Below are positions 12,625 through 61,339 of a stretch of 64,000 nucleotides of DNA, one piece after another. This DNA is from Pontiella agarivorans. GTDB taxonomy: Bacteria; Verrucomicrobiota; Kiritimatiellia; Kiritimatiellales; Pontiellaceae. The stretch's first letter is position 1; every line of letters begins with the position of its first letter. Position numbers and translations under genes: made by a program. The DNA is taken from positions 310,001 through 374,000 of the forward strand of contig NZ_JARVCO010000012.1 in NCBI RefSeq assembly GCF_034531395.1, in the 5' to 3' direction. The notes under the pieces are model-generated. The model made no database searches, was not told where the DNA came from, and saw only the letters and a list, made by a program, of their open reading frames with translations.

Positions 12625-13407
12625 TTATTGAAAAATATCAGGTTTCAGGCGTTGGTGATCGTCGAATGCCGCGGGCAGGCTGAGCAGGATGTTGATGAGG
12701 GCGGCGATGACCATGGCGGTGAAGATGCAGAGCATGATGCCGATCTGGTATTTTATGGCGGGCATCGGCAGTGCGCCGCCGAGGATCTGGCCGGTCATCA
12801 TGCCGGGCAGGGAGACGATGCCCATGGTGGCCATGGTGGAAATTGATGGGTTGACGGTGGCTTTCAGTGATGTGCGCAGGTAGGGGCGGATGGCTTCGTG
12901 AAGGGAGGCACCGAGCATGAGGTAGGTCATGAATTCCTGTTCATTTGCTCGGATGCCGCTGAAGAAGCGTTCGAGACTCATGACATTGCTGCGCTGGCAG
13001 TTGCCCAGAATCATTCCAATGATTGGAACCATATAGCGTGCGTCGTAGAAGGGTTCCGGGCGAATGGCGACCAGAATGAACCATGCACTGACGATGAAGG
13101 TGCTGACTGCAATCCCGGTCAAGGTGCGCCAGAAAAAAATCTTTCGTTTAAGCCCTGATTTTCCGAGTACGCTTAGGTTTGCGGCAACCATCATGATCAG
13201 TACCCAGATGAGATTCATAATCCCGTTGTTCAGCTGGAAAATATATTTGAGATAGATGCCGACGAGCAGAAGCTGAACCGCCATTCGAATGGCGGAAATG
13301 ACGGTTTCACGGACCAGGCCGAGATGCAGCCAGATGAAGATGCCGATCGGGATGAGCAGCAGCGCAAACATCGAAAGTGTGGAAAGTATATCCATTTCGA
13401 CGATCAT
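12625..13407 (-). CDS. fetB: FetB-type (UPF0014) metal-export permease
   Basis: This 260-residue integral membrane protein has about seven hydrophobic helices and the family hallmarks RMAVQLLLVGIYLKYIF near the N-terminus, MVPIIGMILGNCQRS, and SLPGMMTGQILGGALP. In E. coli FetAB exports iron and protects against peroxide stress. The gene overlaps the ATPase gene by ATGA, the same order as in fetAB operons. Metal specificity is inferred from the family. An exact copy of the 15-bp palindrome encodes the VPIIGM part of a conserved motif. Confidence 0.9.
   Translation of the reverse strand: MIVEMDILSTLSMFALLLIPIGIFIWLHLGLVRETVISAIRMAVQLLLVGIYLKYIFQLNNGIMNLIWVLIMMVAANLSVLGKSGLKRKIFFWRTLTGIAVSTFIVSAWFILVAIRPEPFYDARYMVPIIGMILGNCQRSNVMSLERFFSGIRANEQEFMTYLMLGASLHEAIRPYLRTSLKATVNPSISTMATMGIVSLPGMMTGQILGGALPMPAIKYQIGIMLCIFTAMVIAALINILLSLPAAFDDHQRLKPDIFQ
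13014..13028. repeat. TTCCA-N5-TGGAA palindrome
   Basis: Exact copy, core ATGAT, in fetB; on the coding strand it reads PIIG. Confidence 0.85.
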
Positions 13408-14042
13408 ACTTCGGCCTCCTGCAGTTTGCTGTTGATGATGTCGATGATGCGGGTGCTGGCCTTGATCCAGTCGGGATCGTGGGAAACGGACAGGACGGTG
13501 AATTCGCTGTGGAGAAGCTGCGTTATCACGGCTTGTTTACTCTCAGGATCAAGGGCGGAGGTGATTTCATCGGCAATGAAAAGGGTTTTATTCAGCAGCA
13601 GGGCGCGAGCAATGACGATGCGCTGTTTTTCACCACCGGATATACGCTTGGCTTCGTTCTGCAGAATCCCGGGTTTGAGATGCAGTTTTTCCAGGGTTTG
13701 GAAAATTGTTTGATCGTCCGGTTGTTTTCCGCGGTGGGCTTTGTAGGTGAACGGCAGGAGCAGTGCCTCGCGGACGGTTTCTGCACCGAGGATCGGTTCC
13801 TGGCCGATGAATGCAATGCGGCGGCGAATTTCCGCGATGCTTTCTGCGGTCAGTGCGATGCCGCCGACTGAAATTTTTCCAAGGATTGGACGTGCGCCCG
13901 CTACGGCTTTCAGCAGTGAACTTTTGCCGCTTCCGGATGGTCCCCGTATGACAACCTTATCGCCGGGTGCGATCCGCAGCCCGGTTTCTTTCAGCAGGGT
14001 CTGTCCGGGAACATTCAGGGTTATATTTTCAAAATGAATCAT
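13404..14042 (-). CDS. fetA: FetA-type ABC transporter ATP-binding protein
   Basis: This 212-residue ATPase carries Walker A GPSGSGKSS (residues 35-43), the ABC signature ISGGEKQRIVIARAL, Walker B LFIADEITSALD and a switch histidine in VLSVSHD. It energises the adjacent FetB permease. It overlaps the AEC permease upstream and fetB downstream, both by ATGA, so all three are likely translated together. Two copies of the 15-bp palindrome (one exact, one with a mismatch) fall in the coding sequence. Confidence 0.9.
   Translation of the reverse strand: MIHFENITLNVPGQTLLKETGLRIAPGDKVVIRGPSGSGKSSLLKAVAGARPILGKISVGGIALTAESIAEIRRRIAFIGQEPILGAETVREALLLPFTYKAHRGKQPDDQTIFQTLEKLHLKPGILQNEAKRISGGEKQRIVIARALLLNKTLFIADEITSALDPESKQAVITQLLHSEFTVLSVSHDPDWIKASTRIIDIINSKLQEAEV
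13689..13703. repeat. TTCCA-N5-TGGAA palindrome
   Basis: Exact copy, core GGGTT, in fetA; coding strand reads FQTLE. Confidence 0.85.
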
Positions 14043-14971
14043 AGTCCAACCGCGATAATGACAGGCAGGGTGATGGCGGAGAGCAGCGTGCTCAACGCGA
14101 TAATACGGGCGGCGAGGGTGGAGTCGGATCCCATTACATCAGCCATGACATAGGACATGCCGGCGGTGGGGCAGCCGAGAAAGAAAATGGCGATCATTTT
14201 TTCAGTGACCGATAAATCAAAAAATCCAGCCAGCAGGAATCCGATGGCGGGGGTGACGGCCACTTTGATGAGCGAGGCGATCAGGGAGGGCGAGGCGGCT
14301 CCTTTAAGTTTTTCGACGGCCAGGCTTGCGCCAATGCTCATCAGAATCATGGGCAGTGCAGCGCGCCCCAGGGCTTCGAGGGAACGGTTTAGAAAAAGGG
14401 GGAGTTCCAGTTTCAGCAGGTTGAGCGCAATGCCGGTGACGCAGGACATAATCAGCGGATTTTTTACCATCTGCAGAAAGAAGGTGGAAATGGAATCTCC
14501 AGTGCTGTGTTTGTCTTTTCCATAGTGCAGCAGAACGGTTACGGCAAGAATGTTGAATATGACAACGACGGGGGCCAGTACAACGGTGGCGAGCTGTTCC
14601 GCGGAGGCATCGATGCTGCCCAGGGAATAGACAATGACGGGCAGGCCGACAAATGCTCCGTTGCCGCGAAACGATCCCTGAATAAAGGCTCCGGTTTTCG
14701 GTGCAGGAAGTTTTAAGACTTTGGCGACGCCCCACGCAAAGGCCAGACTGAGCACGGTTCCGAGGGAAAAGATTCCCAGAATCCGTGAAATGGTCGGGAA
14801 GTTAAGATCTGCCCGGCTGATACTGCTGATCAGCAGTGACGGCAGGGCAAACCAGAAGACAAAACGGCTGAGGCTCTTGAAAAACACCTCAGGCATAAAA
14901 CCGGTTTTCTGAAGTGTTTTGCCGAGCAGGATCAGCAGAAAAATCGGGGCGATGCTGTTGAGAATAAACAT
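14039..14971 (-). CDS. AEC (auxin-efflux-carrier) family permease
   Basis: The start at 14971 is preferred because the first membrane helix (MFILNSIAPIFLLILLG) begins there, as in the family; a longer frame from 15040 adds 23 polar residues. The 310-residue protein has about ten helices in two halves, with SFRGNGAFVGLPVI in the first half and MSIGASLAVEKLKGA plus FFLGCPTAGMSYVMA in the second, matching AEC permeases. These proteins move small organic anions or amino acids. Its operon with fetAB is unusual and might hint at a metal-chelating substrate, but that is speculation. Confidence 0.85.
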   Translation of the reverse strand: MFILNSIAPIFLLILLGKTLQKTGFMPEVFFKSLSRFVFWFALPSLLISSISRADLNFPTISRILGIFSLGTVLSLAFAWGVAKVLKLPAPKTGAFIQGSFRGNGAFVGLPVIVYSLGSIDASAEQLATVVLAPVVVIFNILAVTVLLHYGKDKHSTGDSISTFFLQMVKNPLIMSCVTGIALNLLKLELPLFLNRSLEALGRAALPMILMSIGASLAVEKLKGAASPSLIASLIKVAVTPAIGFLLAGFFDLSVTEKMIAIFFLGCPTAGMSYVMADVMGSDSTLAARIIALSTLLSAITLPVIIAVGL

Positions 14972-15060
14972 GCGCCAAAGGTAGAGATTGCCGATGTGTG
15001 TGACAAGTGACGATTCAGGTGCGGTGCTTTTTTTGCACAACGCACCTCAGTCATTTCAGC

Positions 15061-15981
15061 TTAATTTTTCAGCGGGGTTGCCCAGACGTTTCGGTATATG
15101 ACCGGGGTGCCGTGAGACTGGAAAAAAATCGGGCCTTCGGCAAGCTGCGGCCGTTTTGCGCCGAGGCCGGTTCCGGTTTCGAGCTCTACGTCATCGTGAA
15201 TCAGTACGCCGTTGTGCCGGACTGTGATGCGGGCGTTTTCAACCTTTTCGCCGTCTTTCAGAACCGGTGCGGTAAAGTCGATGTCGTAGGTCTGCCAGCG
15301 CAGCGGCGGGTAGCACATCGTTACATCGGGGAGTTTCTTTTTATATAGACTTCCGCACCACTGATAATTTTTGGAATTAATGGTATTGGCATTGTTTTCG
15401 GGATGCTCAAAGTCGAGGCCGAATGAATCCATTACCTGCAGTTCGTAGTTGTTGAAGATGTAGATACCGCTGTTGCAGCGGTCCTGGCTTGAGAGGTTGC
15501 GGTCCGGTTTGAACGGAAGCATGAATTCCAGATGCATCGAGAACGAGCCGATGTTTTTCCGGGTTTTTCCGCCGGCCATCAGAAATCCGTTTTTCACATT
15601 GGTGAAATCTTCGGGAAATTTCAGAATGGCATGGTCGGGCTGGGGTTTTCCAAGGGTTGGAGAGACGCGTTCCACCTTCTGGAAATTCTGTACGGCGGTT
15701 TTCAGTTCGTCCGGGGTTTTCAGGGCGGAGACGATGGCGGACTGATTCCAGCCCATGCCGGGGAGTCCGCCGGCATATTGTGCAACGAGGAATTTGCCGC
15801 CGGGCAGTTTGTTGGCTTGAAGTGCAATTTTCCCATCGTTGGAAATATATTCTCCAACCATTGAAAAATCGGGATGAGCCTTTTCGGCCTCGGTCACAGA
15901 GGAGTAGGAGGGGACCGGCGCGGGTTTGGCGCAGGTGCCGATGGCCAGGGCTACGGCAGGAAGAATCAGCAGTTTTTTCAT
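15061..15981 (-). CDS. Exported DUF1080 (3-keto-disaccharide hydrolase-like) protein
   Basis: This 306-residue protein begins with a signal peptide (MKKLLILPAVALAIGTC); the Cys could serve as a lipobox although the -3 to -1 residues are not ideal. The body is a concanavalin-like DUF1080 domain, recognised by SGIYIFNNYELQVMDSFG and by the closing FQSHGTPVIYRNVWATPL strand. DUF1080 proteins act on 3-keto-glycosides made by Gfo/Idh/MocA dehydrogenases, often in the periplasm. It shares a TAATG joint with the second DUF1080 gene and is divergent from three TAT-exported Gfo/Idh/MocA genes. One exact and one near copy of the 15-bp palindrome lie within it. Confidence 0.85.
   Translation of the reverse strand: MKKLLILPAVALAIGTCAKPAPVPSYSSVTEAEKAHPDFSMVGEYISNDGKIALQANKLPGGKFLVAQYAGGLPGMGWNQSAIVSALKTPDELKTAVQNFQKVERVSPTLGKPQPDHAILKFPEDFTNVKNGFLMAGGKTRKNIGSFSMHLEFMLPFKPDRNLSSQDRCNSGIYIFNNYELQVMDSFGLDFEHPENNANTINSKNYQWCGSLYKKKLPDVTMCYPPLRWQTYDIDFTAPVLKDGEKVENARITVRHNGVLIHDDVELETGTGLGAKRPQLAEGPIFFQSHGTPVIYRNVWATPLKN
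15670..15684. repeat. TTCCA-N5-TGGAA palindrome
   Basis: Exact five-base arms with core CCTTC; the only exact copy lacking R at position 6. Coding strand reads FQKVE. It may be a chance match, though a one-mismatch copy ends 8 bp upstream (15648-15662). Confidence 0.6.
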
Positions 15982-16742
15982 TAGAGTTCTTTCACTTTAA
16001 GGTTGCGCCACAGAATGGTTCCCTGATGTCCGGCATGGACCTGCAGACCGAAAAATCCCTGCATATATTCAGTGGTTTTCCAGTGTGCGGCCGGAACGCC
16101 GTTGAGCCAGGTTTTGATGGTATCGCCTTCGGCTTTGACGGTTAGACGGTTCCAGTCATCTTTTTTAAGCTGTTTACGCACTTCGCTGTGGGCTTCGAGC
16201 CAGAGCGGATATTCCCATCCGCCGTAGCCCTGTCCGTAGATTCCGCCGGACCAGCCGCGGAGGCTGCCGGTATTCGGTTTGAAACCTTCCATTTCAGCCT
16301 GCGGACCTTTGATGTTTTCGAAGCCCTGTTTTCCGCCGGGGGCTGCAATGGCGCGCAGCATGACGCCGGAGTTGCCGTCGACCAGCCACTTCATTTCGCA
16401 GGTGAAAATAAAATCTTTGAAATCCGATTTATCGGTGCAGAGGTAGGTGCTGGGGGAACCTTTGACACAGGATCCTTTGATGGCTCCGTCGACGACTTCA
16501 AAAGTTGATTTTCCACCGCGGGGGGTCCATCCGGTGAGGTCTTTCCCATTGAAAAGCGGAGTGAAGCCGCAGCAGAGGTCAGGCTCTTTGTCCGTATTGA
16601 TCAGCATCTCCTCCGGGGTCGGAATGGTTTTCTGCTTTTCATATTTTTTAATGTATTTCCGCTGACTTTCAGAAATCGTGTTGGCCTGTACTGCAGGAAC
16701 CAGCACCGTTGCGCACAAGGCGAAAAATAACAGCTTTTTCAT
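15981..16742 (-). CDS. Exported DUF1080 (3-keto-disaccharide hydrolase-like) protein
   Basis: This 253-residue protein has a clear signal peptide (cleavage likely after AVQA) and a DUF1080 domain starting at FTPLFNGKDLTGWTPRGG, the classic family opening, followed by FIFTCEMKWLVDGNSGVMLR and ending FGLQVHAGHQGTILWRNLKV. The WxxxGG opening and HxG ending are the conserved core of the fold. It is predicted to be periplasmic and to cleave a 3-keto-glycoside bond. It is the first gene of a two-gene operon whose promoter region is shared with the oxidoreductase operon on the other strand. Confidence 0.9.
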   Translation of the reverse strand: MKKLLFFALCATVLVPAVQANTISESQRKYIKKYEKQKTIPTPEEMLINTDKEPDLCCGFTPLFNGKDLTGWTPRGGKSTFEVVDGAIKGSCVKGSPSTYLCTDKSDFKDFIFTCEMKWLVDGNSGVMLRAIAAPGGKQGFENIKGPQAEMEGFKPNTGSLRGWSGGIYGQGYGGWEYPLWLEAHSEVRKQLKKDDWNRLTVKAEGDTIKTWLNGVPAAHWKTTEYMQGFFGLQVHAGHQGTILWRNLKVKEL

Positions 16743-16833
16743 GGTATAAATCTCCGTTTCCGTGGCGTTTATTCATTAAACAGTTCATGCACCCAACGCT
16801 CACCATACCGTGTAACTGGACAGCGCGGGGAAT

Positions 16834-16856
16834 ATTTGTAATTAAAAGTTACAAAT
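16834..16856. promoter_or_regulatory. Inverted repeat in the divergent promoter region
   Basis: ATTTGTAA (16834-16841) is perfectly inverted as TTACAAAT (16849-16856) with a 7-base A/T-rich spacer. It lies between the DUF1080 operon and the Gfo/Idh/MocA operon and is a candidate operator for a shared regulator, which is not in the window. Confidence 0.55.
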
Positions 16857-16942
16857 TAGATTTGAGTATGCAAGGTTCAATTGATAAATGTTCTGATAGT
16901 TGTGCGCATTAGAAGTGGCCGGCTGAATATACAAGGAGATTG

Positions 16943-18367
16943 ATGATGAGTTTTTCGAGAAGAACAACATTGGTCGCGGGGGCTGCGGTTTCCGGCTGGG
17001 CCATGATTCCGGGCCGGGCGCTTGGCGCAAATAATCAGGTGAATCTTGCGGCGATCGGGATTGGTCAGCAGGGTGGAAATATTCTGCGTGCAATTGGAGG
17101 GCAGCCGGGTGTGAATGTGGTTGCGCTGTGCGATGTGGATATCGACAGCGATTCTCCGGTGGTTCCGAAAGATGTGAACCCGAAATATTCGGTTCGCGGC
17201 TGGATGAATCCGAATGCCACGCCGGCCGCCAATGCGGCAAAGTTTCCGAAGGCGAAAAAATATCGCGATTTCCGGAAGATGTTTGACGAAATGGGGGATC
17301 AGATCGATGCGGTCTGTATCGGCCTGCCAGACCATTCCCACTTCCCGGCCACAATGGCGGCGATGATGATGGGTAAACCGGTTTATGTGGAAAAACCGCT
17401 GGCGCGCACGTTTCAGGAGTGTGAACTGCTGATGCAGGCGGAACAGAAATACAAGGTGCCGACGCAGATGGGCAACCAAGGGCATTCCGGCGATAATTAT
17501 CATCAGTTCAAACTTTGGACCGAGATGGGAATCATTAAAAATGTCCGCCATGTTGATGCCCAGATGAACGGGATCCGGCGCTGGCATACGTGGGGCAATG
17601 TGACCGGCTATCCGGGCGGTGAAAAAATGCCTGCCGGCGTCAACTGGAATGTCTGGAGAGGCACTACGCCCAAACCGGTGGATTTCAGCGATAAGCTTCA
17701 TTATGGAAACTGGCGCGGCTGGCACCAGTTCGGCACGGGCTGTTTCGGCGACTGGGGCGCACACATTCTTGATACGATTCACGAATTTCTGGATTTGGGC
17801 CTGCCGGAAAAAATTTCCGCGACGCATCTGGTGGGCAGAAATGATTATATCTTCCCGCTGGAATCGACCATTAATTTCCAGTTCCCGGAACGCGGACCGG
17901 GCCTGCCGGCCATGGACATCGATTGGCGCGACGGCGTGGGCAATCGGTCTCTGATGCCGAAAGAGCTGGGCGGAGACGAGGGCAAGGAACTCTGGGGGAA
18001 CGGAAAGATCATCTATTCCGACGATCTCACATTTAAAGGTTCAACCCATGGGCGTCCGCTTCAAATTGTTCCGCTGGATAAATTCAAGGATATGCTGCGG
18101 TCCGGTCAGGTTTCCAAGGATTACGGCAAGCATTCGACGCATCATGCCAATTTCATTCATGCGGTACGCGGTGATGAAAAGACGCGTTCGCCGTTTTCAG
18201 TGGCAGGACCGCTCTGCCAGATGTTTGCGCTCGGCTGTATTGCCCAGCGCCTGGGAGGGGAATACACGTTCGATCGAAAGACGAAGCAGATCACCAACGA
18301 TAAACGGGCAAACAGCCTGCTGCAGGACGAGGTCCGCAAAGGTTGGGAGCAGTATTATAAAATCTAG
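16943..18367 (+). CDS. TAT-exported Gfo/Idh/MocA oxidoreductase (copy 1)
   Basis: The start is at ATG 16943 or 16946, just after AAGGAG. The 474-residue product begins with a twin-arginine signal (SFSRRTTLVAGAAVSGWAM), then a Rossmann domain with AAIGIGQQGGN and CDVDID, and the EKPLARTFQE motif (the EKP signature, residues near 150). The C-terminal half holds GCFGDWGAHILDTIHEFLDL, in which the GDWGxH(I/L)xD motif carries the catalytic-site histidine. TAT export implies folding with NAD(P) bound before secretion. It probably oxidises a sugar hydroxyl in the periplasm to feed the DUF1080 proteins. The gene lies 4 bp before a close paralogue. Confidence 0.9.
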   Translation: MMSFSRRTTLVAGAAVSGWAMIPGRALGANNQVNLAAIGIGQQGGNILRAIGGQPGVNVVALCDVDIDSDSPVVPKDVNPKYSVRGWMNPNATPAANAAKFPKAKKYRDFRKMFDEMGDQIDAVCIGLPDHSHFPATMAAMMMGKPVYVEKPLARTFQECELLMQAEQKYKVPTQMGNQGHSGDNYHQFKLWTEMGIIKNVRHVDAQMNGIRRWHTWGNVTGYPGGEKMPAGVNWNVWRGTTPKPVDFSDKLHYGNWRGWHQFGTGCFGDWGAHILDTIHEFLDLGLPEKISATHLVGRNDYIFPLESTINFQFPERGPGLPAMDIDWRDGVGNRSLMPKELGGDEGKELWGNGKIIYSDDLTFKGSTHGRPLQIVPLDKFKDMLRSGQVSKDYGKHSTHHANFIHAVRGDEKTRSPFSVAGPLCQMFALGCIAQRLGGEYTFDRKTKQITNDKRANSLLQDEVRKGWEQYYKI

Positions 18368-18371
18368 GAAA

Positions 18372-19778
18372 ATGATGATGAAGCTTTCACGTAGAACGAC
18401 ATTGGGGGCCGGCGCGGCTGCAGCCGGCTGGGCCATGATTCCGGGCCGGGTGCTCGGCGCAAATGAAAAAGTTAATTTTGCCGCGATCGGACTGGGGCAG
18501 CAGGGCGGGGGGATTACCGGTGCGTTCGCCGGAAATCCATACGTCAATCTGATTGCTATCTGCGATGTGGATATCGACAGTTCCTCGCCGGTGAAAGAGG
18601 ACTCCAAAGGACAGCTGGGCTGGGGCAAAGCGACCATCACTCCGGCCCACAATGCCGCAAAATATCCGAAGGCGAAAAAATACCGCGATTTCCGGAAGAT
18701 GTTCGATGAAATGGGGGATCAGATCGATGCGGTCTGTATCGGGGTGCCCGACCACTCCCATTTTCCGATTGCGATGCATGCGATGTCACTGGGCATTGCG
18801 GTTTATGTGGAAAAACCGCTGGCGCGCACTTTCCAGGAATGTGATCTCCTCATGAAGGCCGAAAAAAAATATGATGCGATCTGCCAGATGGGGAACCAGG
18901 GCCATTCCGGCGATAACTATTTCCAATTCAAAGCGTGGCGTGAAGCGGGGATTATCAAGGATGTTACGCATGTGGATGCCTATATGAACAATTGGCGGCG
19001 CTGGCATCCGTGGGGCGATGTGACCGGTTACCCGACCGGGCAGAACGTGCCGGCCACGTTGAATTGGAAGGTTTGGCAGGGCACCACGCCCATGAGCGTT
19101 GATTTCAGCGATAAGCTGCACTATGGAAACTGGCGTGGCTGGCATCAGTTCGGCACGGGCTGTTTCGGTGACTGGGGTGCGCATATCCTCGATACCATTC
19201 ATCAGTTCCTCGAACTTGGACTGCCCGAAAAGTTCGGCACAAAAATGATCGAAGGCCGTAACGATTATATTTTCCCGATGAAGTCGGTTATTAATTTCCA
19301 GTTCCCGGAACGCGGCCTCGGACTTCCGGCGATGGATATCGATTGGTATGACGGACAGAAAAACTGGTGCCCGAAGCCGAAGGAAATGGGCGATCGCAAC
19401 CCCGGCGGGCCAGGAAAATTCATCTATTCCAAAGAGCTCGTTTTTCATGGCAACAGTCATCATCGTCCGTTGCAGGTGATTCCATACGATAAGTTTAAAC
19501 AGATGTTGGTCGATGGAGTTGTTACCAAGGATTACGGGAAGCATTCCAACCACTATCAGAATTTCATCAATGCGGTGCGTGGTGAAGAGCAGACCCGTTC
19601 CCCGTTTTCGGTGGCTGGACCGCTCTGTCAGATGTTTGCGCTCGGCTGTATTGCTCAGCGGCTGGGCGGCGAGTTTGAGTTTGACCGCAAAACGCAGCAG
19701 ATTACCAACAGTAAAAAGGCCAATGCTCTGCTGAAGGATGATGTACGCAAGGGCTGGGAACAGTATTATAACGTGTAA
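18372..19778 (+). CDS. TAT-exported Gfo/Idh/MocA oxidoreductase (copy 2)
   Basis: The true start is the ATG triplet at 18372, preceded by AGGAAA; the open frame extends further upstream only as overlap with copy 1. The 468-residue product has a TAT signal (KLSRRTTLGAGAAAAGWAM), AAIGLGQQGGG, the EKPLARTFQE motif and GCFGDWGAHILDTIHQFLEL. It is strikingly similar to copy 1 along its whole length, including SRSPFSVAGPLCQMFALGC-like segments near the C-terminus, so the pair arose by tandem duplication. Differences in the linker after CDVDID suggest divergent substrate pockets. Confidence 0.9.
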   Translation: MMMKLSRRTTLGAGAAAAGWAMIPGRVLGANEKVNFAAIGLGQQGGGITGAFAGNPYVNLIAICDVDIDSSSPVKEDSKGQLGWGKATITPAHNAAKYPKAKKYRDFRKMFDEMGDQIDAVCIGVPDHSHFPIAMHAMSLGIAVYVEKPLARTFQECDLLMKAEKKYDAICQMGNQGHSGDNYFQFKAWREAGIIKDVTHVDAYMNNWRRWHPWGDVTGYPTGQNVPATLNWKVWQGTTPMSVDFSDKLHYGNWRGWHQFGTGCFGDWGAHILDTIHQFLELGLPEKFGTKMIEGRNDYIFPMKSVINFQFPERGLGLPAMDIDWYDGQKNWCPKPKEMGDRNPGGPGKFIYSKELVFHGNSHHRPLQVIPYDKFKQMLVDGVVTKDYGKHSNHYQNFINAVRGEEQTRSPFSVAGPLCQMFALGCIAQRLGGEFEFDRKTQQITNSKKANALLKDDVRKGWEQYYNV

Positions 19779-19831
19779 GCAGGATCGGCATTTTTCAAAA
19801 GGAGAGGTGCCCGTTTAACAGGAGAAAAAAT

Positions 19832-21181
19832 ATGAACTTAAACCGACGGAATGCTTTATTTGCCAGCGGCGCTGCGGCTTCGCTATCCATGATTCCGGGC
19901 CGGGTGCTTGGGGCCAATGAAAAAGTCGATGTGGCCTGGATCGGCGTAGGCGGGCGCGGTCCGCGCATTATCAGCAATTTCGAGCGTTCAGGCATTCTGA
20001 ATGTCGTAGCCCTTTGCGATGTGCATGTGGATAACAAGAACATGCAGGCCATGAAGGCCAAATATCCCAATGCCAAGGTCTATCAGGATTGGCGGAAACT
20101 GTTTGATGAAATGTCCAATCAGTTTGATGCCGTCATTAATCTGACGCCGGACCATCAGCATTTTCCGATTTCGATGGTTTCGATGGCCCATGGAAAGCCG
20201 GTCTATACCGAGAAACCGCTGGCCCGCACTTTCCAGGAAATTGACCTGCTGATGGCGGCTGAAAAGAAATACGGGGTTCCGACGCAGATGGGAAACCAGG
20301 GCCATTCCGGCGATAACTATTTTCAGTTCAAAGCCTGGAAAGAGGCCGGCATCATCAAAGATGTCACGCATGTGGATGCCTACATGAACAAATGGCGCCG
20401 CTGGCATCCGTGGGGCGATCTGCAGGCTTATCCGACCGGTGCGAAAAAGCCGGCCGGACTCGATTGGGATATTTGGCTGGGCGTCACGCCGACTCCGAAT
20501 GTTTACGATCCGAAATTCCATCCCGGCAACTGGCGCGGATGGTATCAGTACGGTACCGGCTGTTTCGGGGACTGGGGCGCTCATATTCTGGACACGATCC
20601 ACCGCTTCCTTGAGCTGGGCATGCCGGAGAAAATTTCGGCCACAAAATGGGTTCAGCCCAATGATCTGATTTTTCCGTTGGCGACGACCATCAATTTTGC
20701 CTTTCCGGCACGTGGTGACATGCCGGCGATGGATATCGACTGGTACGACGGGCAGGAAAATCTTCCGCCGATTCCGAAAGAATTTGCCGGTCGCGAGCTG
20801 AAGAAGGATAAACCGGGCAAGTTTATTTATTCAAAGGACTATGTGTTCCAAGGGGACAGCCACGGTTCCACACTTCAGATTCTGCCTTACGAAAAATACC
20901 GTGAACTGCTGAAAGCCGGCAATGTGCCGAAAAATTTCGGCAAGAATTCCGACCACTATACCAACTTCCTGTTGGCCTGTAAGGGCGAAGAGGAAACCCG
21001 TTCGCCGTTCTCCGTTTCGGGGCCGCTTTCGCAGGTGTTGGTGCTCGGTTGTCTGGCACAGCGGCTTGGTGGTGAGTTGCACTTTGACCGCGAAACCCGC
21101 CGGATTACCAATAATAAACTGGCCGACAGTCTGCTGAAAGACGAGGTCCGCAAGGGCTGGGAGCAGTATTATAAGCTGTAA
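19832..21181 (+). CDS. TAT-exported Gfo/Idh/MocA oxidoreductase (copy 3)
   Basis: This gene starts at 19832 after AGGAGA. The 449-residue product has a signal with NLNRRNALFASGAAAS, so the twin arginine is kept, followed by VAWIGVGGRGPR, EKPLARTFQE and GCFGDWGAHILDTIHRFLEL. It is the most divergent of the three tandem paralogues: it lacks the roughly 20-residue insertion after the CDV strand that copies 1 and 2 carry. The gene ends 30 bp before a strong terminator, so it closes the operon 16943-21181. A periplasmic sugar dehydrogenase role is inferred from export and neighbours. Confidence 0.9.
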   Translation: MNLNRRNALFASGAAASLSMIPGRVLGANEKVDVAWIGVGGRGPRIISNFERSGILNVVALCDVHVDNKNMQAMKAKYPNAKVYQDWRKLFDEMSNQFDAVINLTPDHQHFPISMVSMAHGKPVYTEKPLARTFQEIDLLMAAEKKYGVPTQMGNQGHSGDNYFQFKAWKEAGIIKDVTHVDAYMNKWRRWHPWGDLQAYPTGAKKPAGLDWDIWLGVTPTPNVYDPKFHPGNWRGWYQYGTGCFGDWGAHILDTIHRFLELGMPEKISATKWVQPNDLIFPLATTINFAFPARGDMPAMDIDWYDGQENLPPIPKEFAGRELKKDKPGKFIYSKDYVFQGDSHGSTLQILPYEKYRELLKAGNVPKNFGKNSDHYTNFLLACKGEEETRSPFSVSGPLSQVLVLGCLAQRLGGELHFDRETRRITNNKLADSLLKDEVRKGWEQYYKL

Positions 21182-21211
21182 AACATAGATGAAGCGTTAT
21201 GCTTCATTATG

Positions 21212-21250
21212 AAAAAAGCCCTTTCCAAGGTTTGGAAAAGGGCTTTTTTC
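21212..21250. terminator. Terminator whose stem contains the 15-bp palindrome
   Basis: AAAAAAGCCCT and TTCCAA pair with TTGGAA, a single bulged A, and AGGGCTTTTTT. The apex is one exact copy of the TTCCA-N5-TGGAA repeat. T-runs on both strands suit the convergent genes ending at 21181 and 21281. A small hairpin (TGAAGC/GCTTCA) precedes it at about 21190-21206. Confidence 0.9.
21223..21237. repeat. TTCCA-N5-TGGAA palindrome
   Basis: Exact copy, core AGGTT, forming the loop-proximal stem of a terminator. Confidence 0.85.
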
Positions 21251-21280
21251 TTTGCGGGATAATGGAGTCGGATGGTTGGC

Positions 21281-22363
21281 TTATTTGACTCCATCGGCCA
21301 TGGCCTGTGCCTTCATGGAAAGCTCCGCCGCTTTGAAGGCATGGTCCTGTGTCATCGCGTTCTCGGTGCGATGGATGCAGTCGAGAATCAGGTCGCCGAA
21401 AAACGGGAAGCCGGTATTTTCCAGACATTGGATTTCCTGCTCTTCTTTCCCATTAACCAGAAAAATTTTGCTCGCCGGCGCTTCGCGGGCAACATCCATA
21501 TATTTCCGGACTTCGAGTGTGCCCTCTGTTCCGACCACAAAGGTTCGGCCGTCGCCCCAGACCGGAGAACCATCCGGCGTGAACCAGTCGATCCGGCAGT
21601 AGAACGAGGCCCCGTTATCCGCCGTCAGCGACGCTTCACCAAAATCATCCAGACCCGGTTTGTCGGGATTGTTGAAGTTTTCCACGCGCGCAAAATTGAT
21701 CGTGGCATCTGCGGCTTTGGTGTAATGCAGAAACTGCTCAAACTGGTGAGAACCGATATCGGTTAAAATACCGCCGTATTTATCCTTCTCGAAAAACCAG
21801 TCCGGCCGGATGGATTTGCTCAGCCGGTGGGGGGCAAGATTGATCACCTGCAGCACGGTTCCCACAGCCCCTTCATCGATCAGTTTCCCGGCCGCCATAC
21901 CGCCTTCATTGTGTAGCCGTTCGGAATAGTAGACCATGTATTTCCTGTCGGTTTGTCTGACCAGTTCCCGGGCACGTTTCAGTTGATCAAGTGTGGTGAA
22001 GGGGGATTTGTCGGTAAAATAATCCTTCCCGGCTTCCATGGCCTGGAAACCGATGCCCGCCCGTTCCGATGGAACCGCCGCGGAACAGACCAGTTTCACT
22101 TCCGGATCATTCAGAATCTGTTCATAAGATTCCGCCGCTCTGGCCTCCGGATTTTTTTCAAGGAAATCGGTGAGTCGTTTCGGGTCGGGATCGTAAGCCC
22201 ATTTCAGGGTGGCTCCGGCATCGCGCAAACCATTGGTCTGTCCGTGAATATGGCCGTGATCAAGGAAGGCCGATGCAAAAACAAATTCGCCCGGGGCAAC
22301 GACTTTTTCGGTTTCGGCCGTGGGGGCATAATCCGCCCCGCTGGCAATCTGGTGTTTACTCAT
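21281..22363 (-). CDS. Cytosolic Gfo/Idh/MocA oxidoreductase
   Basis: This 360-residue protein lacks a signal peptide and starts after AGGAAA. An N-terminal 25-residue extension precedes the Rossmann strand FVFASAFLDHGHIHGQ, where the usual GxGxxG is replaced by a His-rich turn, as in one subgroup of the family. The EKP motif reads TDKSPFTTLDQ, and the C-terminal half has DIGSHQFEQFLHYT. These features are typical of Gfo/Idh/MocA members that act on sugar or inositol derivatives, with weaker cofactor motifs than the exported paralogues. It probably continues metabolism of imported keto-sugars in the cytoplasm. A one-mismatch palindrome copy lies at 21419-21433. Confidence 0.8.
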   Translation of the reverse strand: MSKHQIASGADYAPTAETEKVVAPGEFVFASAFLDHGHIHGQTNGLRDAGATLKWAYDPDPKRLTDFLEKNPEARAAESYEQILNDPEVKLVCSAAVPSERAGIGFQAMEAGKDYFTDKSPFTTLDQLKRARELVRQTDRKYMVYYSERLHNEGGMAAGKLIDEGAVGTVLQVINLAPHRLSKSIRPDWFFEKDKYGGILTDIGSHQFEQFLHYTKAADATINFARVENFNNPDKPGLDDFGEASLTADNGASFYCRIDWFTPDGSPVWGDGRTFVVGTEGTLEVRKYMDVAREAPASKIFLVNGKEEQEIQCLENTGFPFFGDLILDCIHRTENAMTQDHAFKAAELSMKAQAMADGVK

Positions 22364-22421
22364 GCTGTTTCCTGAATGCTGTTTTTTTATAAGTGCACAC
22401 CTGCGCAGGTGTGCGCTTCGG

Positions 22422-23567
22422 TTATCGATAGGATTTTGACATATCCACTTTGGCGGCGGTTTTTATGATTTTGCGGGGTTGGGATTCCGCTATTTTTTGG
22501 TTAATCACCTGTTCGTAGGCTGCGCTGTCGAGCGGCAGGCAGACTTCATCGTTGATCCAGGTGGAGTAAATCATAGCACCGGCCAGTTCAAGCGAGTTAA
22601 GTCCTTCAACCGCCGGGGCAATCAGTTTTGCCTCTCCGCTGGCGGCTTTTACAACGTTGTTTAAAATCGCGGCGTGCTGATTTACCTCTTCCAAAGGTTG
22701 GAAAATTTCCTCGGTGGTTTCGGGGGTGCCGAACATTTCATCCGTATTTTTACTGAAGGTGGAAACCGATTCGCTGGTGCGAATGAGTTTCACCTCATTA
22801 CCGTCCGTGATAATGGTGCCGCGATCTCCGACAATTTCGAGGCGGTTGCTGCCCGGACATTCGCCGGTGCTGGCGGAAAACTGACCGGTTGCGCCGTTGG
22901 CGAATTCGAAATAGGCGTTCACTTCGTCTTCCACTTCAATATCGTGATATTTACCGAAAGAGCACTGCGCACGGACTTTTACGGGCATGCCGACCAGCCA
23001 TTGCAGGACGTCAATGTTGTGCGGGCACTGATTCATCAAAACGCCGCCGCCTTCACCTTTCCAGGTGGCGCGCCAGGGACTGGAAGCGTAGTAGATTTCG
23101 GGCCGGAACCAATTGGTCATGGTCCATGAGATACGCTGCAATTCACCGAGTTCCCCTTCATCGATCCATTGTTTGATCCGGACATAGCAGGGGTGGGTGC
23201 GCTGGTTCATCATCAGCGATGCAATCTGATCTTCGCGCTGAACGGCGGCCAGAATACGCTCTCCTTCGGCCTTATGGCAGGCCAGCGGTTTTTCCATAAC
23301 CAGGTGCAGCCCGGCTTCCAGTGCCTGAATGCCGATAGGGGCGTGCAGGTGTGTCGGAAGCGCAATAATCACCGCTTCGCACAGTCCCGATTCAATGAGT
23401 TCCGAAGCATCGCCGAAACAGGCAATACCCTGTTTCTTGAAGTCGTCGGTTGTATCAATCGGCTGGTTGGCCACAGCCGCCAATTCGGCACCCTCTACTA
23501 AACCGTCCTGAATATTTTTTGCGTGAACCCGGCCGATGTTGCCGAGACCGATAATACCAAATTTCAT
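22422..23567 (-). CDS. Cytosolic Gfo/Idh/MocA oxidoreductase
   Basis: This 381-residue protein opens with a standard NAD-binding fingerprint (KFGIIGLGNIGRVHAKNI), followed by the EKP motif (LVMEKPLACHKAEGE, about residue 92) and the catalytic-site segment MNQCPHNIDVLQWLVG near residue 186, where the expected D-x3-H arrangement is seen as HNID. No signal peptide is present. It has AAGGA before its start and sits upstream of the other cytosolic paralogue in the same direction, 58 bp apart, so they are likely co-transcribed. It probably acts with that protein on a sugar derived from the periplasmic steps. Confidence 0.88.
   Translation of the reverse strand: MKFGIIGLGNIGRVHAKNIQDGLVEGAELAAVANQPIDTTDDFKKQGIACFGDASELIESGLCEAVIIALPTHLHAPIGIQALEAGLHLVMEKPLACHKAEGERILAAVQREDQIASLMMNQRTHPCYVRIKQWIDEGELGELQRISWTMTNWFRPEIYYASSPWRATWKGEGGGVLMNQCPHNIDVLQWLVGMPVKVRAQCSFGKYHDIEVEDEVNAYFEFANGATGQFSASTGECPGSNRLEIVGDRGTIITDGNEVKLIRTSESVSTFSKNTDEMFGTPETTEEIFQPLEEVNQHAAILNNVVKAASGEAKLIAPAVEGLNSLELAGAMIYSTWINDEVCLPLDSAAYEQVINQKIAESQPRKIIKTAAKVDMSKSYR
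22689..22703. repeat. TTCCA-N5-TGGAA palindrome
   Basis: Exact copy, core AAGGT, inside the oxidoreductase gene; coding strand reads FQPLE. Confidence 0.85.
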
Positions 23568-23643
23568 AGCAAATCCTTAATTTGTCATGAAAGGTAACAA
23601 ACGGCGCGGGCCGGTGTCAACTGCTCGTGGATTGATTCGCCCT

Positions 23644-52962: not shown

Positions 52963-53952
52963 ATGAGCCAGATTCAAACCCAATTTATCAAAAACGTCTT
53001 GGCCGGTACTGAGACGCAGCTGTCGGAGAAGGGCTCGGCCTTTGCTCCGGCGAACATTGCGCTTTCCAAATACTGGGGAAAACGCAATGCCGAACTCAAC
53101 CTGCCGGCAACGTCCAGCCTGTCGGTTTCGCTGGGTGATCTCGGAACAAAAACTGAAATCCGCGTGGCCGCTGAGGATTCGGTTTTTCTGAATGGTGAAG
53201 CGATGGGGTCCGAAACGCTCTTTTATAAACGAACGGTTGATTTTCTGAAGCTGTTTCCAATGGTTGGAGCGCATTTTGAAGTTCGGACGCAGAACAGTAT
53301 TCCAACGGCCGCGGGGCTGGCATCCTCAGCATCGGGCTTCGCGGCCCTGGTTCTGGCATTGAACGATTTGGCGGGTTGGGGGCTCGGCCGGCGCATGCTG
53401 TCATTAATCGCCCGGCTCGGCAGCGGCAGTGCTGCGCGCTCGGTTTACAGCGGATTTGTTCAGTGGTATGCCGGTACCGATGATGACGGCAGCGATTCCT
53501 ATGCAGAGCGGATTGATGCAGAATGGCCGGAGTTGCGGGTCGGTATTCTTGAAGTTTCCAATGTTCACAAGCCGGTCGGTTCGCGTGAAGGTATGAACCG
53601 GACTGTCGCAACGTCTGAGCTGTATAACAGCTGGCCTGCGCAGGCGGATGCCGATCTTGAAGCCATTCGTCTCTCTATCCGGGAAAAGGACTTTCCAATG
53701 CTTGGAAAAACGGCAGAGCACAATGCGCTTTCAATGCATGCCACAATGTTGGCTGCCTGGCCGCCGCTTATTTATCTGCAGCCGGAATCGCTTGAAATCA
53801 TTCACACCGTTCAGCGTCTGCGCGGGGAGGGGCTTGAACTTTTTCTCACCATCGATGCCGGTCCGAATATTAAACTGCTGTTTCTGGAATCAGTGGCCTC
53901 CGATGTAATCGCCGCCTTCCCAGACCTCCGGATCATTCAGCCGTTCGGATGA
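52963..53952 (+). CDS. mvaD: Diphosphomevalonate decarboxylase
   Basis: This 329-residue GHMP-family enzyme has the signature KYWGKRN, NSIPTAAGLASSASGFAAL and a GSGSAARSVYSGFVQW motif, which carries the P-loop-like Ser cluster and the ATP-binding region. MvaD converts mevalonate diphosphate to isopentenyl diphosphate with ATP. The final part keeps LFLTIDAGPN with the catalytic Asp. Mevalonate pathways are uncommon in bacteria. No other mevalonate gene is in the window. An exact palindrome (53693) and a near one (53255) lie in it. Confidence 0.92.
   Translation: MSQIQTQFIKNVLAGTETQLSEKGSAFAPANIALSKYWGKRNAELNLPATSSLSVSLGDLGTKTEIRVAAEDSVFLNGEAMGSETLFYKRTVDFLKLFPMVGAHFEVRTQNSIPTAAGLASSASGFAALVLALNDLAGWGLGRRMLSLIARLGSGSAARSVYSGFVQWYAGTDDDGSDSYAERIDAEWPELRVGILEVSNVHKPVGSREGMNRTVATSELYNSWPAQADADLEAIRLSIREKDFPMLGKTAEHNALSMHATMLAAWPPLIYLQPESLEIIHTVQRLRGEGLELFLTIDAGPNIKLLFLESVASDVIAAFPDLRIIQPFG
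53693..53707. repeat. TTCCA-N5-TGGAA palindrome
   Basis: Exact copy, core ATGCT, in mvaD; reads PMLG. Confidence 0.85.
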
Positions 53953-57640: not shown

Positions 57641-57939
57641 GAGGATGGTAAATCTTACAGCCTCAGGAAATGTCCGTTATCGGTCCTGTTTCTGGTATGG
57701 TGCGGCCGATTTTTTTTGTTTCCTAGGATTGGCAGCAGGCTGCTTCGTCGCAGTCGGCGGTGAGGGTGGGCTGAATTGTACTGTTCTTCAGTAAAGGGGA
57801 CGGGTAATGATTTTCTAAATAATTAGTAATTATAGGCTTATTAATAACTAGTAAATCCTGATCATATTTTAAACTATTATAAATTGCATTGCAAAAAAAG
57901 AGACCTAAAGTCGCCATTCCAATTCAAAGGATGGCAGCG
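57641..57939. other. Intergenic region, A+T rich
   Basis: No gene is supported. A 64-codon frame on the minus strand (57723-57917) has no family features. Promoters for the secreted-protein gene that starts at 57940 should lie here. The composition is much more A+T rich from about 57790 to 57900 than the rest of the window. Confidence 0.5.
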
Positions 57940-59850
57940 ATGAATTTTTATAAAACTAGTATCTTTACTGCATTCGCAACTGCCCGTAGCCGATCTTTTT
58001 ATGAACAGTCAATATTTCGGCCAGGAGCGCTGATCGGTTTCTTTGCATTGGCTCTGTTCAATGTGCAGGCACAGTGGGTTACGGAAACCTATGAGCTGAA
58101 GCAGGGCTGGAATGCGGTTTTTTTACATATTGATCCCTCCCATGTATCCATTCCGGAATTGCTGGACCGGGATATTAACAGTCCGATCACACAGATTTGG
58201 CGCTGGAATGCCCCGTCGACGGGAAATTTCTATGAGGATCCGTTTGAATATACGCAGGTTGCAACGGGGTGGAAGCAGTGGATTGTCAGCGATCCTTTCA
58301 AGGGCCTGCAGACGATGGTCGGTGGTATGGCTTATCTGGTGGAAACGGGAAGCGATTATTCCTGGGCAATCAAGGGACGTCCGGTCGTTCCGGCCTATGA
58401 CTGGAATGTGGACGGCCTGAACCTTTTCGGATTTCCGACCGACAAAACGAGCCCGGCGACTTTTGAAGATTATTTCAATGCTTCGGCGGAACTTCAGGCG
58501 ACGGATTATACATTTTACAGCTACAACGGAATTCAACTGGATTCGACCAATCCGAAAAAGATCCACCCTTTTCTTTACCGCAATGAAGCGCTCAACCGGG
58601 GGCAGGCTTACTGGATGTCTGGCGGGGAGACGTTCAATCGCTATTTCGGGCCCTTTGAAGTCGATTTATCGGGAAGGGAGGGGCTGAATTACCGCGATTC
58701 CGGTAGTGCACTCAGTTTACGCATACGGAATATGAGCGGACAACCGGTTACAGTACAGATGGATTTGCTTCCATCGGAGAATCCGCCCGCCGGGGAACCG
58801 ATGATTGACGGTTTGCCTCAACTGCTGGTCCGCGGTCCGACGGATCCGGAAACACTGACGGCCGGGTTTGAGATCCTGATTCCGGGTGCTGGAAACGGCT
58901 CGCAATGGACACTTGCGGAAAAGGATGAAGAGGGTTCGGAAATTGAAGTGGTGCTGGGGCTTGATCGGGCGGCGATTACAGATCCGCCGGGAAGTTTGCT
59001 CGCGGGTATTCTGAATTTCTCCGATTCGGGCGGGATGCTGGACATCCATGTTCCGATTCAGGCCGACGTTTCTTCGGATGCCGGTCTATGGGTCGGACAG
59101 GCGTTGGTTACCGAAGTGGGACAATACCTGAAAACCTATGCGGCCGGATCGACGGATCCTTTAATTGTAACCAATGCGGATCTGGTGGTAACCAACGACC
59201 TCCAGATCTCGGAAGAGGGCAGTTATATTGTCGATTCCGTTAACCGCAATATCGAGTCGGTCGCGCGGCCCTATCCTCTGCGTTTGATTGTGCACAGCCC
59301 GGAATCGGGAAATGCGCTGCTGATGCAGCAGGTCTATTTCGGAGTGGATGCTTTTTCCCGGCCGGTGATTACCCGCGAGGAGTCGGTGCTGGATCCGGAA
59401 AAGTATGATCAGGCCCGCCGTGTCACGGCTATTCATCTGCCCTGGAGCGAGGAAAATCCGGGCTGGCTGTTTGATGGAACGCTGGAGCGGGGCGGTGCCA
59501 TCAGCGCCCGGATAATCACCGCGTTCAATGATCAGCGTTCGAATCCTTTTCTGCATACCTATCATCCGGATCATGACAATCTGGATAGCCGCTTTAAACA
59601 GGAACTGGGGCAAGGGGCAGAGTCCTACACGATTGAACGTGAAATTATGCTGAATGTGGCCCCGCCGGGTACCAACTTTTCGGATCGGGTACAGGCCCAT
59701 CAGCAGCTGACCGGATCGTATCAGGAAGTCATCCGGGTCATGGGTCTTCCGCGTGCCGGCGGAACAAATGATACCCAGATTTTTGAAGTGCACGGTTTGT
59801 TCAGTATGGGTCGTGTTTCTGAGATTTCAGAAATTACTGATCCGCTTTGA
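57940..59850 (+). CDS. Large secreted protein, function unknown
   Basis: The ATG at 57940 follows AAAGGA with a short spacer. The 636-residue protein has a long N-terminal segment and a hydrophobic helix (ALIGFFALALFNVQAQ) that should be a signal peptide. The mature part begins WVTETYELKQGWNAVFLHID and is beta rich, with repeated YWMSGGETFNRYFGPFEV-like aromatic segments and a C-terminal half of mixed strands. I recognise no family signature. It is followed by two further exported proteins in the same direction, suggesting a shared surface structure. Confidence 0.7.
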   Translation: MNFYKTSIFTAFATARSRSFYEQSIFRPGALIGFFALALFNVQAQWVTETYELKQGWNAVFLHIDPSHVSIPELLDRDINSPITQIWRWNAPSTGNFYEDPFEYTQVATGWKQWIVSDPFKGLQTMVGGMAYLVETGSDYSWAIKGRPVVPAYDWNVDGLNLFGFPTDKTSPATFEDYFNASAELQATDYTFYSYNGIQLDSTNPKKIHPFLYRNEALNRGQAYWMSGGETFNRYFGPFEVDLSGREGLNYRDSGSALSLRIRNMSGQPVTVQMDLLPSENPPAGEPMIDGLPQLLVRGPTDPETLTAGFEILIPGAGNGSQWTLAEKDEEGSEIEVVLGLDRAAITDPPGSLLAGILNFSDSGGMLDIHVPIQADVSSDAGLWVGQALVTEVGQYLKTYAAGSTDPLIVTNADLVVTNDLQISEEGSYIVDSVNRNIESVARPYPLRLIVHSPESGNALLMQQVYFGVDAFSRPVITREESVLDPEKYDQARRVTAIHLPWSEENPGWLFDGTLERGGAISARIITAFNDQRSNPFLHTYHPDHDNLDSRFKQELGQGAESYTIEREIMLNVAPPGTNFSDRVQAHQQLTGSYQEVIRVMGLPRAGGTNDTQIFEVHGLFSMGRVSEISEITDPL

Positions 59851-59908
59851 TTCCCGCCGAAATGTTAACCTGCAGAATTTTGAAATGACTATTGAAACGG
59901 AGAAAACA

Positions 59909-61339
59909 ATGAAAACTCAGATCAACATGAAACTGCCGAACATCCTGTTTTCAATGCTGACCGCCAGTGTGCTGCTTGGCCTGCCTGCCCGGGTTTCCGC
60001 TGCAGAGGAGCCGCCGGAGCGCATGACCTATCAGGGTTTTGTGGTAGATGGTAACGGATCCGCACTCGGCAACAGTGCTCCGGAAAATTTCGAAATTATT
60101 TTCAGGATCTGGACGGCGCAGTCCGGCGGGACCCTGAAATGGTCGGAACAGCAGACCGTGACGGTGGATAAGGGCTACTTCAGTGTGCTGCTAGGAGAAG
60201 GTACTGAGGTGAACGGGGAGCTTCGGCCGGCTCTTTCTTCAGTATTTTCGGGAAGCGATGCTTCAGAGCGTTTTATGGGCATCAGTGTTAAAGGAATCGG
60301 GTCCGGCGGGTCGGATGCGGATATTCTGCCGCGGCTCCAACTGGTCACGGCTCCTTACGCTTTTATGGCGCATCACGTTGCCCCGGATTCCATCAGCGGT
60401 GCAAATATTGCCGATAACACGGTTTCTTCCGCCGATATTCTGAGTAATACCATCAACAGTTCTGATATTCAGAATGAATCCATTACGTATCAGGACCTTG
60501 CTCCCAACTCCGTTTATGCGTCTGAAATCGCGACCGGAGCCGTTGGCACTTCAGAAGTGCAGGATAATTCGCTGACGGCCACTGATCTCGCGGCGAATGC
60601 GGTGGGCGCTTCCGAAATTGCAGCGAATGCGGTGGGTAACTCCGAGCTGCAAAGTGATTTAACGCTGAATGGGAGTATCGGGATAAACCAGCGTTACTTT
60701 AATACTGCCCTGACGATCAAGCCGGGGGTCGGTGATAACTATTCGCGTTGGGTTGCTTATGAGGATGGGACTTATACCTTATTTCAAAATGCAGATGGCT
60801 TAATGGGTATTTGCCGTCGTGTGGATTATAATTCCAGCGGTCTTGAGGTGTTGCGTTTGTCTTGTACGACACCGAATTCCGGCACGGATGACTGGTCATT
60901 GCGAATTGATACCGACGATTCCGGCGGTCTGGACGAGGATCTGTTCTTTTATTTGAATGGCTCTTTAAAGGGTTGGGTTGATGCTGATGGGTCCGGGTTC
61001 AAAGGGAACAGTGATGCCCGGTTGAAACAGGATATCACGGATATGGATTCGGTTCTGAATCGGGCGGTACAGCTTCAGCCCCGTCTGTATCGTTTTAAAG
61101 ATAATCCGAATGGAGAACTCCAGCTCGGTTTTATTGCTCAGGAGGTGCAACCCTATTTTCCTGAAATTGTGGACGATGGGGAAGAATATCTGGGTCTTTC
61201 ATACGGCCGTGTCGGAGTGATTGCGATCGGCGCCATTAAAGAACTCAATACAAAGGTGGAAATGCTGAAGGCGGAAAACAGGGCCCTCAAAGATCGGCTG
61301 GATGTATTGGAGTCCCGCATTCTTTCTCTGGAACAATAA
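59909..61339 (+). CDS. Secreted protein with C-terminal S74 intramolecular chaperone domain
   Basis: The ATG at 59909 follows GGAG. The 476-residue protein has a signal peptide (SMLTASVLLGLPARVSA), a beta-rich N-terminal domain (about 30-150), a repeat region (about 155-250) with ADNTVSSADILSNTI and similar 15- to 20-residue units such as ANAVGASEIAANAVGNSELQ, and a C-terminal S74 peptidase-chaperone domain from SDARLKQDITDMDSVLNRAV. The conserved Ser and Lys of that motif form the self-cleavage dyad in phage tail spikes. The end is a coiled coil (LKAENRALKDRLDVLESRI), which suits a trimer. The chaperone domain is expected to cut itself off after trimer folding. Confidence 0.85.
   Translation: MKTQINMKLPNILFSMLTASVLLGLPARVSAAEEPPERMTYQGFVVDGNGSALGNSAPENFEIIFRIWTAQSGGTLKWSEQQTVTVDKGYFSVLLGEGTEVNGELRPALSSVFSGSDASERFMGISVKGIGSGGSDADILPRLQLVTAPYAFMAHHVAPDSISGANIADNTVSSADILSNTINSSDIQNESITYQDLAPNSVYASEIATGAVGTSEVQDNSLTATDLAANAVGASEIAANAVGNSELQSDLTLNGSIGINQRYFNTALTIKPGVGDNYSRWVAYEDGTYTLFQNADGLMGICRRVDYNSSGLEVLRLSCTTPNSGTDDWSLRIDTDDSGGLDEDLFFYLNGSLKGWVDADGSGFKGNSDARLKQDITDMDSVLNRAVQLQPRLYRFKDNPNGELQLGFIAQEVQPYFPEIVDDGEEYLGLSYGRVGVIAIGAIKELNTKVEMLKAENRALKDRLDVLESRILSLEQ

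Follow-up and report, generated by a model that had tools for sequence, protein, structure and literature searches.

A candidate two-compartment 3-keto-glycoside cleavage cluster with a shared operator in Pontiella agarivorans

The locus explored here is a cluster of seven genes, encoding two DUF1080 proteins and five Gfo/Idh/MocA oxidoreductases, together with two palindromic sites. It lies in a 64,000-nt stretch of Pontiella agarivorans contig NZ_JARVCO010000012.1 (GCF_034531395.1, positions 310,001-374,000), hereafter the window, to whose positions the coordinates below refer unless another contig or locus is named. An earlier note on this DNA had described two DUF1080, three twin-arginine (RR)-signal and two cytosolic Gfo/Idh/MocA proteins; all seven genes proved to be real and to lie where it had placed them, with family matches that bear out its assignments. 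The features are:

15061-15981, minus strand: DUFa, exported DUF1080 protein of 306 aa (PF06439, 90.9 bits), with a BDI_3914 (4qhz)-type domain at residues ~107-306 and an N-terminal domain at residues ~20-138
15981-16742, minus strand: DUFb, exported DUF1080 protein of 253 aa (PF06439, 126.2 bits), BT3469 (4jqt)-type (phmmer to 4jqt, 1e-36), overlapping DUFa by 1 nt
16834-16856, plus strand: operator 1, perfect palindrome ATTTGTAA-TTAAAAG-TTACAAAT (full site ATTTGTAATTAAAAGTTACAAAT) in the divergent region, ending ~90 bp before GDH1
16943-18367, plus strand: GDH1, RR-signal glycoside-3-dehydrogenase-like protein (NF058561, 243.8 bits), with an orthologous clade in the tree
18378-19778, plus strand: GDH2, RR-signal glycoside-3-dehydrogenase-like protein (NF058561, 244.5 bits), AF2 model closest to 8tdf/8tdh
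19832-21181, plus strand: GDH3, RR-signal glycoside-3-dehydrogenase-like protein (NF058561, 286.3 bits), whose paralogues (62-64%) at other loci of the genome have sulfatases as neighbours
21281-22363, minus strand: cyt1, cytosolic Gfo/Idh/MocA oxidoreductase resembling 2p2s and 3u3x, two structures without assigned function
22422-23567, minus strand: cyt2, cytosolic Gfo/Idh/MocA oxidoreductase closest to the P2B11 glucuronide-3-dehydrogenase 8tdi
23580-23602, plus strand: operator 2, an imperfect palindrome (ATTTGTCATGAAAGGTAACAAAC) that precedes the cyt2 start codon by 12 bp and lies just downstream of a TTGACA box

DUFa and DUFb both exceed the gathering cut-off (26.8 bits) of PF06439, the 3-keto-disaccharide hydrolase (DUF1080) family, and the five other proteins exceed the Pfam cut-offs of the Gfo/Idh/MocA families. 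The DUF1080 genes diverge from the three RR-signal genes across a region of ~200 bp, the spacing inside the exported dehydrogenase operon being 10 and 53 bp, while cyt1 and cyt2 converge on that operon and thus form a separate transcription unit. The divergent layout described earlier therefore stands for the DUF1080 and exported dehydrogenase genes, but the cytosolic pair does not simply follow them. GDH1 starts at ATG 16943 or 16946 and not at TTG 16940. The N-termini of the exported trio (MSFSRRTTL, MKLSRRTTL and MNLNRRNAL) carry a twin arginine that is invariant across 29 homologues and precedes a hydrophobic stretch, and the genome encodes one TatC (C2:245994), features by which GDH1-3 are predicted substrates of twin-arginine translocation (Tat). 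On the contrary, the signals of DUFa and DUFb are Sec-type (for DUFb, MKKLLFFALCATVLVPAVQA upon sequence inspection), and no signal sequence was found on cyt1 or cyt2. Hence, predicted Tat export holds for the dehydrogenases, as does the cytosolic placement of the pair, but not for the DUF1080 proteins.

The NCBIfam model of the BT_2158 glycoside 3-dehydrogenase (NF058561) ranks nearest for all three GDHs. A profile of the 29 homologues matches the Alistipes glucoside-3-dehydrogenase AL3 (8tdf/8tdh) over its full length (~409 positions, E 1e-133, 450 bits), while the next entry (4e-22), as all others listed, is matched in the Rossmann part only. Likewise, the GDH2 model (AF2, predicted local distance difference test 81.7) superimposes on AL3, including its trehalose complex, with template modelling (TM) scores of 0.73-0.76, the other fold matches shown ranging from 0.40 to 0.55 by query length. 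Full-length similarity and this fold match place GDH1-3 among predicted glycoside-3-dehydrogenase-like Gfo/Idh/MocA proteins, and EKP, GxGxxG and GDxGxH motifs are present in every full-length cluster copy. In the tree, GDH1, GDH2 and GDH3 form separate clades, each with orthologues in two relatives (G011 and G019), as expected for old paralogues by sequence and ruling out a recent or artefactual triplication. The trio is retained together in three genomes, one of them with a fourth copy; other relatives have one or two copies.

Regarding the DUF1080 proteins, the model fold of DUFa (VIA) is closest to 4qhz (Z 17.7) and also matches entries titled 3-keto-glycoside eliminase/hydratase or 3-keto-2-hydroxy-glucal-hydratase (Z 10.9-11.7). 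The fold matches listed are all taken up by its C-terminal domain. The N-terminal domain was found in 15 of 193 genomes of the class (nine within the family and six more distant) and is thus nearly confined to this cluster. DUFa and DUFb are assigned the fold of 3-keto-glycoside eliminase/hydratases, both proteins falling in uncharacterised subgroups. In some relatives DUFb and DUFa are separated by a third type, DUFc, which in G021 is fused to DUFa in a single 507-aa protein. In an Opitutales metagenome-assembled genome (L006:10001-12195), a 71% homologue of GDH2 is directly followed by a 63% homologue of DUFb, which suggests transfer of the pair beyond Kiritimatiellales.

The cytosolic cyt2 aligns with 8tdi nearly over its full length (residues 3-360 to 6-390, E 2.3e-61) and conserves its NQRT and YY..S.WRATW.GEGGGVL.NQ.PH motifs. 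By this similarity it is a predicted P2B11-type glucuronide-3-dehydrogenase, although differing from P2B11 in being encoded in a two-gene cytosolic operon with cyt1. In relatives, an Nramp-family gene separates cyt1 from cyt2 or immediately precedes cyt2, in several of them together with a ROK gene. DPGN and MPH are the metal-site motifs of Nramp transporters. A role as metal importer of the pathway was discarded for these proteins, since the members linked to the cytosolic module are devoid of both motifs and the only copy of the window genome is unlinked; motif-less members occur at L003:14079-15512, L008:13836-15542 and, in the window genome, C2:838302. Judging from their sequences, dehydrogenase-linked Nramp-family transporters may carry a cargo other than metal.

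Both modules share an operator. In 11 genomes the extracted divergent region (133-203 bp) contains the pattern ATTTGTAA-N7-TTACAAAT, with 86-93 bp between its end and the first dehydrogenase; in a twelfth, G026, the pattern is eroded. Operator 1 was spotted by eye before any profile was made, so its conservation is descriptive, and the independent test is that on the cytosolic operons. A mismatch scan of the window returned one further site only, operator 2, just upstream of cyt2. A profile built solely from the 11 divergent-region sites was then tested on the cytosolic operons, whose start was taken as the cyt2 start codon or as the Nramp-family gene where it leads. Matches lay 11-12 bp ahead of this start in 14 of the 15 genomes, G002 with its distant modules among them. 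The seven strongest scores (16.4-27.6) exceed those of all 336,786 background positions (maximum 12.3). In the window genome the two operators are the sole standouts, other two-mismatch matches remaining at the level of a reversed-pattern control.

A ROK protein encoded near cyt2 in Pontiella sulfatireligans provides the candidate regulator: its orthologues occur in exactly the same 15 of 29 family genomes as cyt2 and in 0 of the 14 others. In the window genome it lies away from the cluster (C2:260026-261207). Only fragments of it are found in G024 and G026 (L124:6170-6649 and L125:5227-5448), the cytosolic operator sites being weak in both. Palindromic operators are a common feature of ROK regulators and stand at the catabolic genes of ROK sugar regulons such as that of bifidobacterial NagR (PMC9599254). 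Those regulons differ in having other target genes, and in the present case ROK binding is a prediction. No convincing operator was detected upstream of the ROK genes themselves, which would indicate autoregulation, except for a weak one in G028. The shared operator and the matching occurrence of ROK and cyt2 suggest that the periplasmic and cytosolic modules are probably one ROK-controlled regulon, the pairing of regulator and operator being a prediction. The cytosolic module is present in those 15 genomes and the periplasmic one (DUF1080s and dehydrogenases) in 12, all within the 15, so that no genome among the 29 has the latter without the former. The modules are adjacent in most genomes.

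Gene content, export signals, catalytic-type residues, linkage, the shared operator and the phyletic match between regulator and cytosolic module were all computed. We consider it reasonably probable, somewhat above even, that the set constitutes an oxidative 3-keto glycoside-cleavage route in two compartments, switched by a shared ROK regulator. In the periplasm, a glycoside would be oxidised at its C3 hydroxyl by one of the three Tat-exported dehydrogenases, with tightly bound NAD(H). DUFa, DUFb or the two together would next release the aglycone or the neighbouring sugar by elimination and hydrate the product to a 3-keto sugar, which might then be imported or be reduced again by that exported dehydrogenase. 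In the cytosol, cyt2 and cyt1 may reduce or process keto sugars, possibly keto-uronates, a role modelled on the Agrobacterium Gfo proposed to reduce 3-keto-glucose (PMC10628242). A sugar-sensing ROK, encoded elsewhere in the genome, would bind the palindrome at both units and switch them jointly. The individual reactions, the class of substrate and the match of regulator to operator are drawn from homology and are to be read as predicted.

Comparison with known systems places the chemistry on familiar ground. BT2158 has been described as a periplasmic glycoside 3-dehydrogenase (PMC11300592) and BT2157 as a 3-ketotrehalose hydrolase (PMC9007349), and the Bacteroides/Alistipes pathway to which they belong (8tdf, 8tdh, 8tda, 8v31, 8rr2, 9fbe) also combines an exported Gfo/Idh/MocA dehydrogenase with DUF1080 proteins of common folds. 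However, the present cluster has three tandem dehydrogenases, two DUF1080s of other subgroups and no PF01261 gene, and adds the cytosolic pair and the shared palindromic operator. In Caulobacter, periplasmic C3 oxidation is likewise followed by a proposed DUF1080 step (CCNA_01705), but the dehydrogenase is the membrane-bound LacABC complex and not a Tat-exported Gfo/Idh/MocA protein (PMC9007349). The Agrobacterium phlorizin operon (GlycDH, AtOGE, AtHYD and Gfo) performs C3 oxidation, beta-elimination, hydration and Gfo reduction of 3-keto-glucose, although elimination and hydration there fall to a Mn-dependent enzyme and to a putative sugar phosphate isomerase rather than to DUF1080 proteins (PMC10628242). 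Thus, keto-sugar chemistry is already known in Bacteroides and Agrobacterium (PMC9007349, PMC11300592, PMC10628242), while the two-module arrangement under one conserved operator, the tandem dehydrogenases and the paired DUF1080s of other subgroups are new.

Chemistry on 3-keto sugars outside the cytoplasm, as proposed in the earlier note, is hence favoured, the closest proteins of known structure being a glucoside-3-dehydrogenase solved with trehalose and DUF1080 eliminase/hydratases; as a kind, a periplasmic keto-sugar route has good support, each of its steps being predicted from sequence and models. Co-regulation, whose absence that note had named as counting against it, finds support in the operator linking both modules. 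Several observations weigh on the other side. No cluster protein reaches the NCBIfam equivalog cut-off (NF058561, 244-286 versus 750 bits). DUFa and DUFb resemble BDI_3914 and BT3469 and not the tested BT2157 group, so that catalysis by either is deduced from homology and unproven. Neither an eliminase/hydratase-type gene of PF01261 nor a clear importer is part of the cluster, whereas both are present at other loci of the genome. In seven genomes operator 2 is weak (3.4-10.2; background rate at most 3e-5 per position), and in the profile test G001 had no match at the expected place of the cytosolic operon. The ROK gene is near cyt2 only in some relatives and stands alone on another contig in the window genome. 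Finally, the genomes are related, and co-occurrence counts overstate independence.

A more specific version is tentative: a dedicated, ROK-controlled two-compartment pathway of Kiritimatiellales for uronide-containing glycosides, in which the DUF1080 pair, at times with the third type fused, would split elimination and hydration, and the GDHs would differ in specificity. Comparably doubtful is that the modules are functionally separate, the periplasmic one acting on glycosides and the cytosolic pair belonging to an older uronate- or inositol-like pathway under a merely common sugar regulator. The cytosolic module occurs without a neighbouring periplasmic one in G001, G022 and G027, the two lie far apart in G002 (0.08 versus 3.2 Mb on a single contig), and cyt2 scores 123 bits with the myo-inositol 2-dehydrogenase model, under its cut-off; the shared operator, the adjacency in most genomes and the lack of any periplasmic-only genome argue for the contrary. 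It is unlikely that the exported trio acts by itself as NAD-dependent glycosidases of the GH109 kind, with DUF1080 proteins as carbohydrate-binding accessories, even though DUF1080 folds resemble CBM66 and lectins: membership of GH109 was rejected for the trio, as its similarity to 6t2b (56 bits) and 2ixa (35 bits) is confined to the N-terminal Rossmann part, compared with 450 bits over the full length for the glucoside-3-dehydrogenase, and fold TM scores are ~0.5 versus 0.73. That the exported oxidoreductases are glucose-fructose oxidoreductase (GFOR)-like aldose oxidoreductases for osmoprotection or redox balance, cleaving no bond, is very improbable: GFOR of Zymomonas, which belongs to the Gfo family, is likewise exported by Tat and holds its cofactor tightly, and it is also among the fold matches of the GDH2 model, but the sequence profile match is weak (46-48 bits) and the tight DUF1080 linkage points to keto-glycoside cleavage.

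Such linkage extends beyond the cluster. The host genome contains 17 PF06439 proteins, at least 20 BT_2158-like proteins, 10 PF01261 matches and ~150 sulfatases, and 12 of its 17 DUF1080 genes have a related dehydrogenase no more than 4 kb away. Chance would give 0.58, and none of 5000 random trials gave more than 5, which, together with the gene order recurring in relatives, indicates an arrangement beyond chance. Across phyla, the linkage was found at 35 of 61 loci. A more complete locus of the genome (L063:6397-11241, contig C12, ~626-631 kb) combines a DUF1080 protein, an exported dehydrogenase, a cytosolic Gfo, a PF01261 TIM barrel and an MFS-like transporter, and G002 has a similar TIM-MFS pair ~5 kb from its periplasmic module (L120:2304-4282).

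Fucoidan, carrageenan and chondroitin sulfate all support growth of Pontiella species, whose complement of sulfatases and glycoside hydrolases is notably large (PMC7356697). The earlier suggestion of a sulfated-polysaccharide substrate is not sustained for this cluster, its nearest sulfatase being 122 kb away; four sampled sulfatases had no homologue in the compared regions of relatives with the periplasmic module and had one only beside the G027 cytosolic module. Elsewhere in the genome, several DUF1080-dehydrogenase pairs, including close GDH3 paralogues at C6 and C2, lie 1.4-5 kb from sulfatases, so the idea fits those loci better. Oxidation has recently been recognised as a way to cleave glycosides that needs no glycoside hydrolase, and a conserved keto-sugar regulon in the Pontiella group suggests a second, non-hydrolytic route in marine anaerobes. 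Regulon membership and the roles of the DUF1080 subgroups gain cheap, concrete handles from the operator and from the pairing of DUF1080 proteins.

Downstream, the DUF1080 unit runs nearly without gaps into further minus-strand genes:

14039-15040, minus strand: AEC-family permease (PF03547, 103 bits), directly downstream of DUFa, a possible member, linked in several relatives and absent in others
13404-14042 and 12625-13407, minus strand: ABC ATPase and UPF0014 membrane protein, a FetAB-like pair downstream of the permease

The host belongs to the Pontiellaceae (Kiritimatiellales), and its nearest named record is Pontiellaceae bacterium B12227 (86% identity in GDH2), followed by P. sulfatireligans and other Kiritimatiellales. 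At 57889-61339, a 653-aa open reading frame without Pfam match overlaps the start of another with a C-terminal Peptidase_S74 chaperone domain, and a diphosphomevalonate decarboxylase-like gene lies at 52963-53952.

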